NCBI RefSeq assembly: GCF_000331735.1
Contig: NC_020126.1
Location: forward strand, 1,426,001-1,490,000
Length of the DNA: 64,000 bases
Origin: Myxococcus stipitatus DSM 14675
Lineage (GTDB): Bacteria > Myxococcota > Myxococcia > Myxococcales > Myxococcaceae
Direction: 5' to 3'
Shown: in pieces, positions 25,075-32,577 of the stretch
Layout of the letters: each line of letters begins with the position of its first letter
Numbering within the stretch: the first letter of the stretch is position 1
Translations under genes and position numbers: made by a program
The notes under the pieces: generated by a model
What the model was told of the DNA's origin: nothing
Database searches by the model: none
Seen by the model: the letters and a program-made list of their open reading frames with translations, nothing else

Positions 25075-26463
25075 CTACCGCGAAGCGGGCAGCGTCCAGT
25101 CGAGGAAGAAGCGATGTGCCCCGCCGGGCACGCTCTCCATCCAGCCGGTGATGCGCTCACTGCGCGAGAGCAGCGGGCCCAGCTCGGAGCTGACCGCGAA
25201 CATCGCGGCGAGCTGCTCGTCCGACAGCACATCCGTCAGCGACACCTGGGACAGGCCTCGCGCCAGCAGCTTCGGGTCCAGCGTGAAGTCCACCGCGCGC
25301 TCGAGCTTCGCCTGTGCTTCCGGCAGCGCGGCCATCGTCGTCCGCGTCACCGCCTCGTCGTTGCCCACCACCAGGTGCTTGCCCTTCAACTTCACCAGCA
25401 CGCTCCCGCCCTTCACCGTCAACGCCCAGCCATCCTCCAGCACCTTCGCCCCCGGCAGCGTGCCCAGCGGCGCCAGCGCCTGCTTCATCGCCGCCGCGTC
25501 CTTCACCTCCGCCACCAGCGCCTGCTTCACCGCGAAGAAGCGCGCCTCCGGTGCCTTCAGCGAGCCACGCACCTGCACGTTGCTCATGTTCACCAACATG
25601 TTCCCCGTGAGCTGCTTCGTCACGGCGTCCGCCGTCGTGCGCACCTGCTCCTTGGGACACGCGGGGCACAGCGCCTGGATGTTCGCGCGCAGCGACGCCA
25701 CGGCCTGCGGCAGCCCCGCGGGCGCCACCGCCACGCGTGAGAACAACAGGCCCTCCGGCTTCATGGAGGCATAAGGACTGGCCGCCTGGGTCTGGAACGG
25801 AGGCAGCGGCAGCTTCGTCGCCGTCCCATCCGCCTTCAGCGCCGACGCCGTTCCATCCAGCCCCACCACCGTGCCACCCGTGGTGATGAACGCCACGCCC
25901 GCCACCTTGCTCAGCCGCGCATCCGGCGCGGGCGTCTTACCCACCAGCTTCACCGCCTCCTTCAGCAGCGCGGGCCCGCCTCCCTCCGTCGCCCCATACG
26001 CGCAGACCTCCTTGCCCTTCAGCGCGTAGCCCATCGCCCCGCCCGCCGAGCGCTCCGAGCTCACCGTCGTCACACCCTTCGACGTGGCGGGCTTGAAGGC
26101 TTCACCTCCCGCCGCACTGATGGCCTCGGCCGCCTGGGCCTGGAACACCTGGGCATCCGCCACGCGCATGCAGGACACACGGCCATCCGCGCGCAGCGAC
26201 ACCGTGGCGGGCCCCGTGGGGTCCAGGCCGACCGCGCTCAAGGTCTCCGGCTTCGTCGGGTCGATGGTGAGGAACGGGTGCAGCTCCGCGCGCCACGCGG
26301 TGGGCCGCAGCAAGGGCGCATGGGCACCGGCGCGCTCCAGGAAGGCGGTGAGCCCCGCCAGCGCATCCAGCTTGGGGACATGCACGACGGTCTGCGCGGA
26401 GGCGGCGGCGCGGGGCGCCGGAGCAGCGGCCAGCGCGGCGGCGAGAACGAGCGAGGGAACCAT
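25075..26463 (-). CDS. exported protein, unknown function
   Basis: 462 residues. A signal peptide (MVPSLVLAAALAAAPAPRAAA) precedes a long domain of alternating strands and helices (VHVPKLDALAGLTAFLERAG, FFAVKQALVAEVKDAAAMKQALAPLG, KLKGKHLVVGNDEAVTRTTMAAL), reminiscent of DUF3352-like periplasmic proteins. I could not confirm that family. GGGGGG immediately upstream may serve as SD. Convergent with the site-2 protease, whose stop is 75 bases away. No catalytic motif seen. Confidence 0.7.
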   Translation of the reverse strand: MVPSLVLAAALAAAPAPRAAASAQTVVHVPKLDALAGLTAFLERAGAHAPLLRPTAWRAELHPFLTIDPTKPETLSAVGLDPTGPATVSLRADGRVSCMRVADAQVFQAQAAEAISAAGGEAFKPATSKGVTTVSSERSAGGAMGYALKGKEVCAYGATEGGGPALLKEAVKLVGKTPAPDARLSKVAGVAFITTGGTVVGLDGTASALKADGTATKLPLPPFQTQAASPYASMKPEGLLFSRVAVAPAGLPQAVASLRANIQALCPACPKEQVRTTADAVTKQLTGNMLVNMSNVQVRGSLKAPEARFFAVKQALVAEVKDAAAMKQALAPLGTLPGAKVLEDGWALTVKGGSVLVKLKGKHLVVGNDEAVTRTTMAALPEAQAKLERAVDFTLDPKLLARGLSQVSLTDVLSDEQLAAMFAVSSELGPLLSRSERITGWMESVPGGAHRFFLDWTLPASR

Positions 26464-26795
26464 CCCCCCGTGAGAGCAGCGCCCCTCCACCCCTGTCAAG
26501 GCGCTCGCGCGCACCGTGTGGGGTGTTCCCCGTGTCTTGGTGGAACAGGCGCGGGGCCTTCCAGGAGGAGCCCGCTCACGCCGTCAGGTGCTTCCCCGGT
26601 GGAGCAGCGAGGCGAAGCCAGTCCGCCTGCCGCCACCCCACCGGTCCCCCCCTTGCTATCGGTTCGACGACTCCATCACCTCGGCCCCGGCGCGCATGGG
26701 GCGCGGGGACTTCAAGCCCCTGCCCCCATGTGTGTCCGCCCTCGCGACCCGGCGTGTCGAGCCCGACAAGACTGTCGACTGGTCAACCGCCGGCG
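26464..26795. other. 332-bp intergenic region
   Basis: Between the start of the 462-residue exported protein and the end of the 155-residue gene, both on the minus strand. Open frames here have atypical composition and no SD. I see no RNA gene, no strong inverted repeat and no convincing promoter. Confidence 0.5.
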
Positions 26796-27263
26796 CTAGA
26801 GCCGGTCCTTGTTGGTCCACTCAATCATTCGCTCCGCCAGGTCCTCGGTGTTGCGCCGCAGGTGCCCGAGTTGGAGCATCTGGTCATCCGACTCGGCCAG
26901 ATGCATGCGCCGCGTCAACAGGTCCGCGAAGCGCAGCACCTGGAGGATGGTGAGGTGCTCCGGGTCCTCCGCGGCACCGGCGAAGCGCGCCACCTCGGCG
27001 TCCACGTCCAGGTTCTCCGCGAGGAGCATGGCCACCAGTTGAGCGCGCGACACCCGCGCCTCGAATCCGTCCGGATTGCGAAGCTGACGGCGCCACGGCT
27101 GCGACTCCCAACGAACACGCGCGGGGTCCCGAACGACTCGGCTCCGAATGGGAACCGTGCTCATCCTGCCCTGCATGCCGGAGCTGCCCGGCGACCAGAA
27201 GCTGAGTTCCATCAGTGCCCCCTCTCCACCACGGGGTCTATCCACGAGCGTGACCGACTTCAT
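26796..27263 (-). CDS. hypothetical protein
   Basis: 155 residues, soluble. The N-terminal 50 residues are basic and irregular. Residues about 70-150 look helical (VSRAQLVAMLLAENLDVDAEVARF, LTILQVLRFADLLTRRMHLAESDDQML). The only clue is this helical repeat-like C-terminus, possibly a protein-interaction module. No family recognised. It is divergent from the methionine S-methyltransferase gene. The start could also be one of the internal Met codons at residue 18 or 30. Confidence 0.55.
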   Translation of the reverse strand: MKSVTLVDRPRGGEGALMELSFWSPGSSGMQGRMSTVPIRSRVVRDPARVRWESQPWRRQLRNPDGFEARVSRAQLVAMLLAENLDVDAEVARFAGAAEDPEHLTILQVLRFADLLTRRMHLAESDDQMLQLGHLRRNTEDLAERMIEWTNKDRL

Positions 27264-27421: not shown

Positions 27422-30400
27422 ATGCCGACCTATCCGTCGTCTCCTCGAGAGGCCTTTCATCTCCTGCGCGCGTTGTCGGAGGATTTGACCCACCCGGAGC
27501 GCAGGGCCCGCGCGAAGGGGGAGCTGCGCGAGCTGGCGGAGCTGGCCCGGGAGCAGCCCGAGTCCGCGCCGCTGCGGCTGGTGACGGTGACGGTGGCGGT
27601 GGGCGCCTCGCAGGAGCGGCTGGAGCTGTTCCTGTTGCCCTCCATCTTCGCGCCGGAGTCCTGGGCCTATACCTTCCTGGAGGGATTGCTCAGCGTTCCG
27701 TTGGATGAGTACGCCGGCAAGCGACTGGTGGAGGTGGGCGCGGGCTCGGGGTGGATCTGCATCGCGCTGGCGAAGTTCACGCGCCTGTCACAGGTCCATG
27801 GCGCGGACCTCAATCCGCACTCGCCCGTGGTGGCCCGCTGCAACGCGTGGCTCAACGGGGACGAGAGCCTCGTCTCCCGGCTGTCCTTCGGTGAGAGCGA
27901 CCTCTTGCGCGGCGTGCCCGCGGAGCCCGGCTGGGACTTCGTGGTGGGGTGCATTCCCCAGGTGCTGCGCACGGAGGAGCTTCCCGAGGAGCTGTCCCAG
28001 GCGGATGAGCAGGAGCTGTATGACCTGTCCAACTACTGCACGCTCCAGAACGTCTACGAGGACCACTTCGGTCTCGGCCTCATCGCGCGACTGCTCGACG
28101 AGGCCCCCGAGCGGCTCTCGCCCTCCGGCCGACTGCTGCTCAACCTGGCCGGACGCCCGGGGCGCCCCATCATCGACCGCATGTTCACCCGCCGCGGCTT
28201 CTCCACGCGGGTGCGCGTGGCGAGGCGCGTGCGTCAGGCGGCGGACACGGACATCCGCCCGTTGGTGGCGCTGGAGCAGCGCACGGGGCGCGAGTTCGAG
28301 TTCTTCATGGAGGCGCGCAGCCCGGAGCCCTTGCGCGCGGCCACCGCGCTGGGCTGGCTCCAGGCGGGGCACGCGGTGTGGCACGAGGTGGCGGTCTGGG
28401 AAGCTCACCTGACGCGCCCGCGCGAGACGCTGGCCCTGCGCCAGTCGCTGCGTGAGCTGGGCATCGCCTCGCTCCAGGAGGAGCTGGACCTGGGCGCCGC
28501 GTCGCCCGAGCAGCTGGGCTTCGTCGCGGCGCTCGCGAAGCGGCTGGCGAGTGGGCCCTTGCTGCCGTACGCGCACGAGGCGGGGGATGCCTCCTTCCGT
28601 CGGCAACTGGTCCGCTACCTGGAGCGCTACTTCGGCCTGCGGCTGGGCCAGGACGAGCTGTTCGTCGCGCCCGAGCGGGAGCAGGCGGTGTACTCGCTGC
28701 TGATGGCCACGTGCGACGTGGGCGACGAGGTGCTCGTCTCCCGCAACCTGCAGCCGCTGTACGCGCGGGCCTTGGAGAAGGCGGGCGTGCGCGCCACGGT
28801 GACGCACACGACGCTGGAGGAGATTCGCCGGCTGCTGTCCGCGTTCGACGTGAAGATGGTGCTGCTCACGGTGGAGAAGGGCGAGCGCACCAACCTCTCC
28901 GTGCTGCGCGACATCATCGCGGAGGCGGGGCGGCGCGGCATCTGGGTGGTGCTGGACGAGAGCGCCTTCTTCAACATCACCGGCGAGGTGGAGCCGCTCA
29001 CGCTGTTCGAGTTCCTGGCGCGCGAGCCCTATGCGCCCAACCTGGTCGTGCTCTACGGCCTGGTGAAGAACGCGGTGTGGCCGGACCTGGAGCTGACGCT
29101 GCTGTTGCCCGTGCCGGAGCCGCTGCGCGCGGACCTGGAGGTCGCCGCGGAGGTGACGTACTCGCGCATCAGCACGCTGGCGCAGTGGTTCTACGAGCGC
29201 ACGTTCTCGGACCTGCTGTCCTTCCGCATCTCCTTCGCGGAGCCGGAGCCTCCCGGGCCTCGGCGCTCGCCGGTGTCGCCGCTGCCGCGCTCGTCCCGCA
29301 TCCGCGCGCTGTCGGGCTTCCCCGCCTTCGCGCCCAAGGTGTTCCGCGAGGACGACGCGGAGCTGGTGCGGCTGGACTACGGCGAGAATGAAGGGCCGCT
29401 GCCGCAGTCGCTGGTGGAGGGCCTCATCGCCGCCGCCGCCGCGCCGCGCGAGGACAAGGCCCAGACGGGCCTAACGGAGACGGTGGCCGCCTATCTCCTG
29501 GAGACGCGCGCCGCGCGGTACTCGCCGGAGGAGCTGGTGGTGGCGCCGGGCGTGTGGCCGCTCATCCACCACTTCGGCGTGGCGCTGCGCAGGCGCCTGG
29601 GCCGCGTGCCTCGCGTCTTCGTGGTGACGCCTTGCTACGGCGTGCTGCCGCCGACGTTCGTCTCCGCGGGATGTCAGGTGGAGCAGGGGACGCTGGCGGA
29701 GCTGCTGGGGCGCAGAGGGCAGGGCGCGCCGGACGCGGTCGTCATCTCCCAGCCGTCGAACCCCACGGGCGTCTACGTGGCGCGCGAGGAGCTGGTGGCG
29801 CTGGCCAACTACGTCGTGGAGCAGCGGTGCCTGCTGGTGTCCGATGAAATCTTCGGACTGGTGAACCTCACCAGCCCCACGGCGGAGACGGTGCACAGCC
29901 CGGTGACGCTGGAGGGCGCGGTGCCGGGCGTGGGGGCCCGCACCGTGGTGCTGGGCGGACTGTCGAAGGAGTTCGCCGCGGGGGGCCTGCGCGTGGGCTG
30001 GTTGGCCTCACGCGACAGGGCGCTGGCGGCGGCGGTGCGAGAGGCGGGGCCTGGCGTGCTGCACCTGGTCACCGCGCGCGCGGCGGCGTACCTGTACGCG
30101 GCCTATGTGCGCAGCCCGGAGGGACAGTTGCTCTACGGGGCGAGGCACCGCTCCCTGCGCACCTTCCTGACGAAGATGCGCCGCGAGCTGGCGGAGAAGC
30201 GGGAACTGCTCGCCCAGGCCCTGTCCGCGGATGGGCGCTCCTCGGACGCGGGGGATGCGGGAGGACTCTTCCTGGCACCCCGCATGACGTCCTGGCTGGG
30301 CCGCGTGGTGGAGGGGGTGCGGCTCACGCCGGAGAACCTGCCGCGCGTCGTCTACGAGCACACGCACGTGGTGCTCAACGGAGGGCCGTGGTGCTCGGAC

Positions 30401-30502
30401 CCCGAGCGGGTGCGCGCCGTCTTCTCCATTCCCCAGGAGAAGCTGGCGAAGGCGTGCGAGCGCCTGAAGGCGTTCGGCGCGAAGCTTCAGCAGGGCTCCT
30501 GA
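27422..30502 (+). CDS. methionine S-methyltransferase, plant-type three-domain fusion
   Basis: 1026 residues, close to plant MMT (about 1070-1090). The N-terminal SAM domain has LVEVGAGSGW near 100 and, in place of NPPY, GCIPQVL near 176. Then come LSNYCTLQN and EDHFGLGLIARLL, segments I recall as nearly invariant in plant MMT. The enzyme makes S-methylmethionine from Met and SAM. Two aminotransferase-like domains follow: a divergent one (about 330-640, GLVKNAVWPD) and a complete PLP-type one (about 660-1020) with QPSNPTG (N780), SDEIFGL and LSKEFAAGGLR, whose K849 would bind PLP. Start ATG gives MPTYPSSP. A strong terminator follows. Confidence 0.88.
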   Translation: MPTYPSSPREAFHLLRALSEDLTHPERRARAKGELRELAELAREQPESAPLRLVTVTVAVGASQERLELFLLPSIFAPESWAYTFLEGLLSVPLDEYAGKRLVEVGAGSGWICIALAKFTRLSQVHGADLNPHSPVVARCNAWLNGDESLVSRLSFGESDLLRGVPAEPGWDFVVGCIPQVLRTEELPEELSQADEQELYDLSNYCTLQNVYEDHFGLGLIARLLDEAPERLSPSGRLLLNLAGRPGRPIIDRMFTRRGFSTRVRVARRVRQAADTDIRPLVALEQRTGREFEFFMEARSPEPLRAATALGWLQAGHAVWHEVAVWEAHLTRPRETLALRQSLRELGIASLQEELDLGAASPEQLGFVAALAKRLASGPLLPYAHEAGDASFRRQLVRYLERYFGLRLGQDELFVAPEREQAVYSLLMATCDVGDEVLVSRNLQPLYARALEKAGVRATVTHTTLEEIRRLLSAFDVKMVLLTVEKGERTNLSVLRDIIAEAGRRGIWVVLDESAFFNITGEVEPLTLFEFLAREPYAPNLVVLYGLVKNAVWPDLELTLLLPVPEPLRADLEVAAEVTYSRISTLAQWFYERTFSDLLSFRISFAEPEPPGPRRSPVSPLPRSSRIRALSGFPAFAPKVFREDDAELVRLDYGENEGPLPQSLVEGLIAAAAAPREDKAQTGLTETVAAYLLETRAARYSPEELVVAPGVWPLIHHFGVALRRRLGRVPRVFVVTPCYGVLPPTFVSAGCQVEQGTLAELLGRRGQGAPDAVVISQPSNPTGVYVAREELVALANYVVEQRCLLVSDEIFGLVNLTSPTAETVHSPVTLEGAVPGVGARTVVLGGLSKEFAAGGLRVGWLASRDRALAAAVREAGPGVLHLVTARAAAYLYAAYVRSPEGQLLYGARHRSLRTFLTKMRRELAEKRELLAQALSADGRSSDAGDAGGLFLAPRMTSWLGRVVEGVRLTPENLPRVVYEHTHVVLNGGPWCSDPERVRAVFSIPQEKLAKACERLKAFGAKLQQGS

Positions 30503-30538: not shown

Positions 30539-30611
30539 AGGACCTGGGACTGGAAGGGGGCTCGCGGCGGTGGATGCGCGCGGCGACACTGCCGGCGTCC
30601 AGGGGCGAGTC

Positions 30612-31415
30612 ATGAGCAAGCCTGAGCCGCGCGCGGTCATCGAGCTGGTGGGCGTGCACAAGTCGTTCGGCGAGCAGCCGGTGCTTCGCGGCGTGGACCT
30701 GGTGGTGCGTGAGGGCTCCACCTGCGTGCTGCTGGGGGTGTCCGGCTCCGGCAAGACGGTGTTGATGAAGCACGTGGACGGGCTGCTGACGCCGGACCAG
30801 GGGCAGGTGCGCGTGGAGGGAGAGGACCTCTCACGCCTGGACGCGGTGGGACTGGCGCGCGTGCGCCGCAAGCTGGGCATCCTGTTCCAGGGTGGGGCCC
30901 TGTTCGACTCGCTCAGCGTCGAGGACAACGTGGCCTTCCCGCTGCGAGAGCGGCTGGGGCTCCCCGAGCGGGAGGTGCGCTCGCGCGTGCGGCGCGTGCT
31001 GGCCTGGGTGGGCCTGGAGGAGTCCGCGTCGCTGCTCCCCGCCGCGCTGTCCGGAGGCATGCTCAAGCGCGCGGCGTTCGCTCGCGCCATCGTCATGGAG
31101 CCGCGCATCCTCCTCTACGACGACCCCACGGCGGGGCTGGACCCCCTCAAGACGCAGTCCGTCGTGGAGGTCATCCTCACGGGCAAGCAACAGTTGAATG
31201 CCTCATCTCTCGTCATCACCCCGGATGTGGCCACCGCGTTCCAGGTCGGCGACTCCCTGGCGCTGCTGCACGAGGGGCGCATCGTCGAACACTCCGCCCC
31301 GTCGGTGTTCCGCGAATCCCAGCACCCCGCCGTGCGTGCCTTTCTCCATGATTGGCTGACGCGCCGCGCCCGCCATGCGGGGCACCCCGACTCCGCCGCG
31401 CCCGCTCCCCACTGA
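30612..31415 (+). CDS. ABC transporter ATP-binding protein, MlaF/Mkl type
   Basis: 267 residues. Walker A GVSGSGKT (K48), the LFQGGALFDSLSV Q-loop typical of MlaF/Mkl, signature LSGGMLKRAAFARAI and Walker B ILLYDDPTAGLDP are intact. MlaF-type ATPases power retrograde phospholipid or steroid transport with an MlaE permease and an MCE protein. None is adjacent, so partners must lie elsewhere. The usual H-loop His is replaced in SLVITPDVATAF, which may lower activity. Start ATG follows AGGGGCGAGTC. Confidence 0.88.
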   Translation: MSKPEPRAVIELVGVHKSFGEQPVLRGVDLVVREGSTCVLLGVSGSGKTVLMKHVDGLLTPDQGQVRVEGEDLSRLDAVGLARVRRKLGILFQGGALFDSLSVEDNVAFPLRERLGLPEREVRSRVRRVLAWVGLEESASLLPAALSGGMLKRAAFARAIVMEPRILLYDDPTAGLDPLKTQSVVEVILTGKQQLNASSLVITPDVATAFQVGDSLALLHEGRIVEHSAPSVFRESQHPAVRAFLHDWLTRRARHAGHPDSAAPAPH

Positions 31416-31578: not shown

Positions 31579-32577
31579 ATGCCCAATCTGCTCGACCTGC
31601 CGCGGCAGGCATTGATGGACCTGCGTTCTCGTTTGAGCCACCTCCCCCTGGTCTCGCAGCTTCCCTTGCGCAACGTGGTGCCGGACAGTCTGTCATTGTC
31701 GAGCCCCATGCCCCAGGACACCGCGCTGGCGGACCCCGCCCGGGTGCTGGCGTGGCAGAAGGCGTGTGAGCGTTATGTGACGCCGGGGCACGTGGTGATG
31801 GATGTGTGCTCGGGGACGGGGCTGCGCACCTTCCTGGCCGCCTCCCGTCGCCCTCGGCACCTGTACGCGGTGGATGGCTCACGCCTCCTCGACACGACGC
31901 GCTGGGTCGCGCGACGCAATGGGTTGGAAGACATTGACTTCGTGCGTGCGCACCCCTGGAACTTCCAGGCACCGGAGAAGGTGGACGTGCTGCTGCACGA
32001 GCTGCTGGGGGAGGCGCTGTTCGACGCGGGGCTGGTGCCTCGGATGTTGGACTTGCGCTCGCGGCTGCTCAAGCCCGGAGGCCGCATCCTGCCCAACCGC
32101 TTCGAGGTCTTCGTGGAGCCGGTGCAGCTTCGCGACGAGGCGTGCATCCCGTTCATCTGGAGCCAGCGCTTCCCCAGCGTGGACTACAGCTGCCTGCAGA
32201 CGCTGCGCGAGGCGATGAACCCGTCGTACTTCACCCGCGTGGTGCGCTCGTACGAGGTGGACCACCTGCTGTGCGAGCCGGAGCCCGTCTTCGCCTTCGA
32301 CCTGGAGACGATGACGGCGGACGGCCTGCCGCACCGCGTCCGCTTCGAGCGGCCGGTGACGGAGGAGGGGCGCGTGGACGGCTTCTGCCTCTTCTACAAG
32401 GTGGCCTTCGACGCGGAGCTGTCCTTCACGGTGTCGCCGCTGCGCGGTCAGAACCACGCGGGCATGACGCTCCTGCGCGTGGACTCGCGGGAGTTCGAGC
32501 GCTACGACACGCTGGGCTTCGAGCTGGAGATGGCGAACCCCGCCGACGTGCGCACGTGGCGTTGGAACTTCTTCTGA
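31579..32577 (+). CDS. SAM-dependent methyltransferase resembling protein arginine methyltransferases
   Basis: 332 residues. Motif I VMDVCSGTGLR (about 72) is followed by an acidic loop LYAVDGS. HELLGEALFDAGL (about 139) sits where PRMTs have the double-E loop, then LKPGGRILPNRFEVFVEPV matches the PRMT L-PGG-I-P segment. The C-terminal half is beta-rich, as in the PRMT barrel. In place of the catalytic SExxG...E pattern it has HExxGEA, so substrate and chemistry are uncertain. SD AGGGGAAGTC. It lies 51 bp upstream of the WS/DGAT gene and is probably cotranscribed. Confidence 0.75.
   Translation: MPNLLDLPRQALMDLRSRLSHLPLVSQLPLRNVVPDSLSLSSPMPQDTALADPARVLAWQKACERYVTPGHVVMDVCSGTGLRTFLAASRRPRHLYAVDGSRLLDTTRWVARRNGLEDIDFVRAHPWNFQAPEKVDVLLHELLGEALFDAGLVPRMLDLRSRLLKPGGRILPNRFEVFVEPVQLRDEACIPFIWSQRFPSVDYSCLQTLREAMNPSYFTRVVRSYEVDHLLCEPEPVFAFDLETMTADGLPHRVRFERPVTEEGRVDGFCLFYKVAFDAELSFTVSPLRGQNHAGMTLLRVDSREFERYDTLGFELEMANPADVRTWRWNFF

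Follow-up and report, generated by a model that had tools for sequence, protein, structure and literature searches.

This locus raises the question of whether a probable bacterial methionine S-methyltransferase (MMT) of the plant type uses, or once used, the aminotransferase half of its chain as an enzyme. The window, i.e., the whole stretch of 64,000 nucleotides of Myxococcus stipitatus DSM 14675 DNA that was analysed, contains the 1026-residue open reading frame named in the initial annotation, running from ATG to stop. The motifs listed there were all found in the translation: GCIPQVL (residues 176–182), LSNYCTLQN (202–210), EDHFGLGLIAR (213–223), NPTG (780–783) and the lysine K849. Of 63 related loci, 61 have an ATG at or close to the equivalent start (taking the closest start codon up to 25 codons away), the exceptions being a locus interrupted by a contig end (L028) and one without an ATG there (L063). 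The genome, a single contig of 10,350,586 bases, holds one full-length copy of the gene; six other matches, at E 3.4e-8 or weaker, each cover fewer than 190 residues, all in the aminotransferase regions. With homologues at 42–99% identity in 59 other genomes, the frame and its relatives are far beyond chance. The features discussed below are collected in Table 1.

Table 1. Coordinates of the MMT-like gene, its domains and selected residues, and adjacent genes in the window
Feature	Position	Strand	Description
Full-length MMT-like gene	27422..30502	+	1026 aa plus stop; ATG at 27422
SAM methyltransferase domain	27422..28396	+	residues 1–325; GxGxG 106–110, D129, C177 in GCIPQV; MmtN match
GCIPQV	27947..27964	+	residues 176–181; aligned to GCLPQV of MmtN, including SAM-binding C121
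AT1	28397..29257	+	residues 326–612; large domain only of a fold-type I aminotransferase; K549, D512 kept
K549 codon	29066..29068	+	aligned with the PLP lysine position; kept in 47/49 distinct proteins
AT2	29258..30499	+	residues 613–1026; complete class I aminotransferase; N780, D808, K849, R857, R998
K849 codon	29966..29968	+	expected PLP Schiff-base lysine; kept in 49/49 distinct proteins
Neighbour gene	25075-26514	-	upstream; no Pfam match at E 0.001
Neighbour gene	26796-27263	-	upstream; no Pfam match at E 0.001
ABC ATPase	30609-31415	+	adjoins the MMT-like gene
PRMT-like protein	31579-32577	+	PRMT oligomerisation subdomain PF22528, E 1.2e-7

The sole Pfam family matched by the protein is Aminotran_1_2, residues 1–325 having no Pfam match at E 0.001, and the 25 NCBIfam families listed, of 51, are families of PLP enzymes or a MocR-like regulator, none of the 25 at its cut-off. 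Automatic annotation would therefore probably see only an aminotransferase. When solved structures were searched with phmmer, the first match for the SAM domain was MmtN (7vvv, E 8.4e-10), and a profile of nine SAM domains found MmtN (7vvv, 7vvw and 7vvx) at E 8.9e-20, the next chains following at 1.8e-5. In hhalign, the SAM domain and MmtN aligned over 240 columns with 98.8% probability. The same nine-domain profile detected only the MMT-like gene at E <=0.001 among 67 candidates in its own genome, and the reverse search of that genome with MmtN residues 22–290 returned the MMT-like gene as the best match (8.5e-9), the next match being at 2.7e-3. Because MmtN is the closest solved relative of the SAM domain and a reciprocal best match, MMT is the best reading of the protein, a family call that, judged from sequence, is well supported though not proven. 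The kinship with MMT and MmtN proposed at the outset is thus upheld, as is the description of MmtN as a short single-domain enzyme: PMC9135737 gives its length as 305 aa, and this Group I enzyme of Roseovarius indicus lacks the aminotransferase part present in the 1026-residue protein here. In a search for an MmtN outgroup in 198 genomes from the family to which a Sulfitobacter record belongs, four weak matches were obtained (L074 to L077), the best at 2.2e-7; the search had no positive control, and its negative outcome carries no weight. Three of the four (L074, L075 and L077) were rejected, since each adjoins what looks like prfA and is hence probably prmC.

Residue comparisons were made for 49 distinct proteins from 64 loci, several of which are the same genome from two collections; one of the 49 (L028) is incomplete. 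The nine MmtN residues named by Peng et al. are all found in the MmtN fragment under the numbers given in the paper. At the SAM site, D69 and C121 of MmtN are D129 and C177 here, L102 is L162 (MAFFT) or L161 (hhalign), and S101 is without a match, falling opposite a gap (MAFFT) or D160 (hhalign). The glycines G106, G108 and G110 of the GxGxG motif are present, the GC[IL]PQV and GLGL blocks are shared with MmtN, and D129 is found in 48 of the 48 distinct proteins covering the position and C177 in 47 of 49. Four other MmtN residues, in contrast, have no equivalent: of the Met-binding residues E127 is aligned to an arginine, R183 of our protein, and R132 to a gap, and the columns of P169 and R183, which form the phosphate pocket of the MmtN trimer, hold Y212 and D226. 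E250 of MmtN is aligned to E291 by hhalign and to a gap by MAFFT. The Met-gating stretch is shorter than in MmtN, and residues 182–212, the region of E127 and R132 of MmtN, make up the largest low-confidence segment of the predicted model. According to PMC9135737, the MmtN variants E127A, R132A and E250A keep more than 50% activity with a Km for Met ~8–13-fold higher, so that the residue differences weaken the MMT assignment but do not refute it.

That a full-length MMT is unusual or undescribed in a bacterium, as the initial annotation implied, is not supported. Peng et al. (2022; PMC9135737), citing Williams et al. (2019), describe a plant-like dual-domain MMT in some Deltaproteobacteria and Oligoflexia, and place plant and bacterial MMT in one methionine S-methyltransferase group, Group III; further, the gene was found in all 27 genomes searched of its own genus, its own genome included. 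The novelty of a full-length bacterial MMT is out of date, and the PLP site is the remaining point of interest. The same paper reports DMSP production in just one of the four Group III bacteria examined, and calls the role of S-methylmethionine production in bacteria with a Group III MMT difficult to predict. Five myxobacterial name stems were looked for in its main text and not found, but this very clade may be in its tree. Our protein is like Group III MMT in having an MmtN-like SAM domain with a GxGxG motif followed by an aminotransferase-like part, and in that no Met-cycle gene was recognised among the four window neighbours with a Pfam match, as is reported for Group III. No difference from Group III has been established; the text seen speaks of one C-terminal aminotransferase domain and does not mention the PLP residues, the truncated and complete aminotransferase parts, or the role of that half. 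A literature search covering titles and the starts of abstracts, with most subscription papers outside it, found no paper treating the PLP site of bacterial MMT, and the available portions of PMC8004995 and PMC13360808 hold nothing on bacterial full-length MMT. In plants MMT is ubiquitous, and one of two Spartina MMTs is active, comparably to those of Arabidopsis and barley (PMC11464771).

Both aminotransferase-like domains proposed initially are real, with the refinement that the first (AT1) is a large domain only and the second (AT2) is complete. AT2 matches Pfam PF00155 at E 4.1e-30. In the full-length predicted model (pLDDT 84.7, pTM 0.84), its best fold match (VIA-align 2) is the prephenate aminotransferase 5wmk, with Z 38.6, rmsd 2.5 and 372 residues aligned; the best 50 fold matches for the full-length model are filled by one domain, 7vvv being absent from them, and are uninformative on the SAM domain. 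By sequence, the best solved relative of AT2 is ACC synthase 1m4n (E 1.1e-11), whose N202, D230, K273, R281 and R407, which we take to be its PLP and carboxylate site, align with N780, D808, K849, R857 and R998; the residue letters at those numbers agree. The alignment to 1m4n, together with conservation, bears out the PLP lysine and NPTG assigned earlier to the last domain. AT2 is thus like the class I fold-type I aminotransferases (prephenate and aspartate aminotransferases and ACC synthase) in fold and in five PLP-site residues, but differs in following a methyltransferase and a truncated sister domain in the same chain, and in having F811 at the position of Y233 of ACC synthase, presumably the tyrosine that hydrogen-bonds PLP O3'. 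F811 is found in 48 of 49 distinct proteins, the exception being an alanine in L064, and G846 lies at S270 of 1m4n. AT1, folded alone as residues 326–615 (pLDDT 78.7, pTM 0.72), matches only the large domain of aminotransferases, at Z 18.5–20.3 among the best 50 matches listed. It is without the NPxG motif and without the C-terminal small domain, for which there is no room because the AT2 alignment begins at ~620. D512 of AT1 is present in 48 of 49 distinct proteins.

Among the AT2 residues, D808 and R857 are, like K849, invariant in the 49 distinct proteins, and N780 and R998 are each kept in 48. As these proteins are for the most part closely related, the weight of the conservation counts falls on two divergent ones. 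The first of them, L063 (41% identical), keeps all five AT2 residues and has lost K549; the second, L064 (43% identical), keeps K849, D808 and R857 and carries N780D and R998H along with F811A. The SAM domain of L064 is gutted, being without the block from GCIPQV to GLGLIAR and without the first glycine of GxGxG, and this protein may be a decaying copy or may be a sign, from one genome, that the aminotransferase half persists after the methyltransferase is lost. The L064 homologue is encoded at L064:4070-6991 (-) in a genome of 2.7 Mb from the same order.

An approximate plant MMT sequence, which serves as a lead only, aligned end to end with residues 11–1022 (24.9% identity, E 1.3e-84). Conserved in it are the GxGxG glycines, D129, C177, D512, K549, D808, F811 and R998; L, S and K take the places of K849, N780 and R857, and R that of E291. 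Should plant sequences from databases bear this out, plants would have lost an AT2 lysine retained in these bacteria. Since the main PLP residues are kept here and not in the approximate plant sequence, the myxobacterial proteins are a natural place to ask whether the aminotransferase half has, or once had, enzymatic activity. They are also a place to ask if there is an S-methylmethionine route in bacteria without homocysteine methyltransferase. The homocysteine-methyltransferase family PF02574 occurs once in the M. stipitatus genome, in an open frame of 1192 codons that we read as MetH, and all 27 genomes of the genus have it in open frames of 1187–1410 codons. A second, smaller PF02574 frame (353–411 codons) was found in only three of the 27, the other 24 yielding no gene of this family other than the MetH-sized one. 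A sink for S-methylmethionine is thus not evident, nor, in those 24 genomes, is the plant cycle of MMT and homocysteine methyltransferase. Of 12 matches to PF01053, which includes other PLP enzymes that are possible users of S-methylmethionine, four are strong and lie elsewhere in the genome.

The best explanation, and one we think fairly probable, is that the protein is a Group III MMT that methylates methionine and has a PLP-competent AT2 site in use. By homology, the N-terminal domain would most likely transfer the methyl group of SAM to the methionine sulfur, with S-methylmethionine as the product, and would do so by holding SAM and methionine close together, as proposed for MmtN. AT1 would pack against AT2 in the place that a partner subunit takes in an ordinary aminotransferase dimer, and the chain would carry one PLP-competent site, in AT2, presumably with PLP bound. 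The residues of that site are conserved as though it were in use. The likeliest use would be the binding, and probably the turnover, of methionine or S-methylmethionine as amino acids. It is distinctly possible, though short of probable, that the aminotransferase half is instead a non-catalytic scaffold or regulatory domain, with any PLP structural or sensory and methionine S-methylation the only reaction. Plant MMT, according to PMC9135737, has an aminotransferase-like half and a described reaction that is methylation, and the approximate plant sequence, again as a lead only, retains that half without the AT2 lysine. The truncation of AT1 and the phenylalanine in place of the usual tyrosine would also suit a scaffold, as would the overall conservation of AT2, which is lower than that of the other two domains in six of seven pairwise comparisons (e.g., 63% versus 69–70% with L065). 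A scaffold, however, fits poorly with K849, D808 and R857 being unchanged throughout, even in the two proteins that are only 41–43% identical, and with residues 849–857 forming, across 20 aligned sequences, the longest stretch free of variation. In that alignment AT2 has the highest share of invariant columns (73/414), the SAM domain having 52/325, a count lowered by the presence of the gutted L064, and AT1 37/287.

That the SAM domain methylates another thioether or sulfur amino acid, making the protein MMT-like but not a methionine S-methyltransferase, we judge unlikely. Such a substrate would be consistent with the changes at E127 and R132, the shorter Met-gating stretch, the 24 genomes with only a MetH-sized PF02574 frame, and window neighbours that include no recognised Met-cycle gene; but the activity left in the MmtN variants indicates that those residues are not essential (PMC9135737), and the protein retains the SAM-site residues and the GC[IL]PQV block. 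Quite unlikely, in our estimate, is a reading in which one chain carries out two reactions: methionine would be methylated, and the PLP site, with AT1 completing it in cis, would then act on the sulfonium amino acid, by transamination, decarboxylation or an elimination releasing dimethyl sulfide. Myxobacteria would thereby have a new way to consume S-methylmethionine, standing in for the homocysteine methyltransferase that they lack, and plants would have lost the second site. Recent transfer from a plant, or contamination, was already disfavoured and is very improbable. Nothing beyond the plant-like architecture speaks for it, whereas the G+C content of the gene, 70–72%, is like that of the rest of the window, the neighbour genes are common to Myxococcus and close relatives, and the gene was found (E <=1e-20) in 60 of the 195 genomes searched in the phylum, in 12 of 90 genera, at 42–100% identity, its own genome included.

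Eleven loci are 85–92% identical to the M. stipitatus gene, ten of them titled Myxococcus or Pyxidicoccus and one Comamonas; the orthologue of M. xanthus AM003 is L014. The record titled Comamonas sp. KCTC 72670 (BNCN01000002.1, L016) has a myxobacterial MMT locus, 85% identical and with several common neighbours, so the organism given in the title is probably wrong. Among plasmids, 38 records match, all at less than 60% identity and with coverage of the query below 80% in every case, and the matches in the 15 of 38 listed are confined to residues 631–1024. No RNA element was found in the window at Rfam thresholds, and thus no SAM riboswitch upstream at that threshold, and the window has no tRNA.

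Six neighbouring genes were scanned, and the four with a Pfam match encode a PRMT-like methyltransferase, an ABC ATPase, a WS/DGAT acyltransferase and an M50/CBS protease. When the neighbour genes were looked for in 27 related loci, some of them were found in the Myxococcus, Pyxidicoccus, Citreicoccus and 'Comamonas' loci; the seven Corallococcus-labelled loci examined, one of which has a shortened flank, had none. Of the other loci, some have one or two neighbours and some none, two of the latter being contigs or stretches of ~5 kb. The two upstream genes on the opposite strand adjoin the MMT-like gene in the Myxococcus, Pyxidicoccus and Citreicoccus loci examined. The ABC ATPase gene is present in L013, L014, L016 and L019 and absent from L009, L010, L011, L015, L024 and L025, although these six have the PRMT-like and WS/DGAT neighbours. 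The PRMT-like gene itself encodes an arginine-methyltransferase-like protein in a bacterium.
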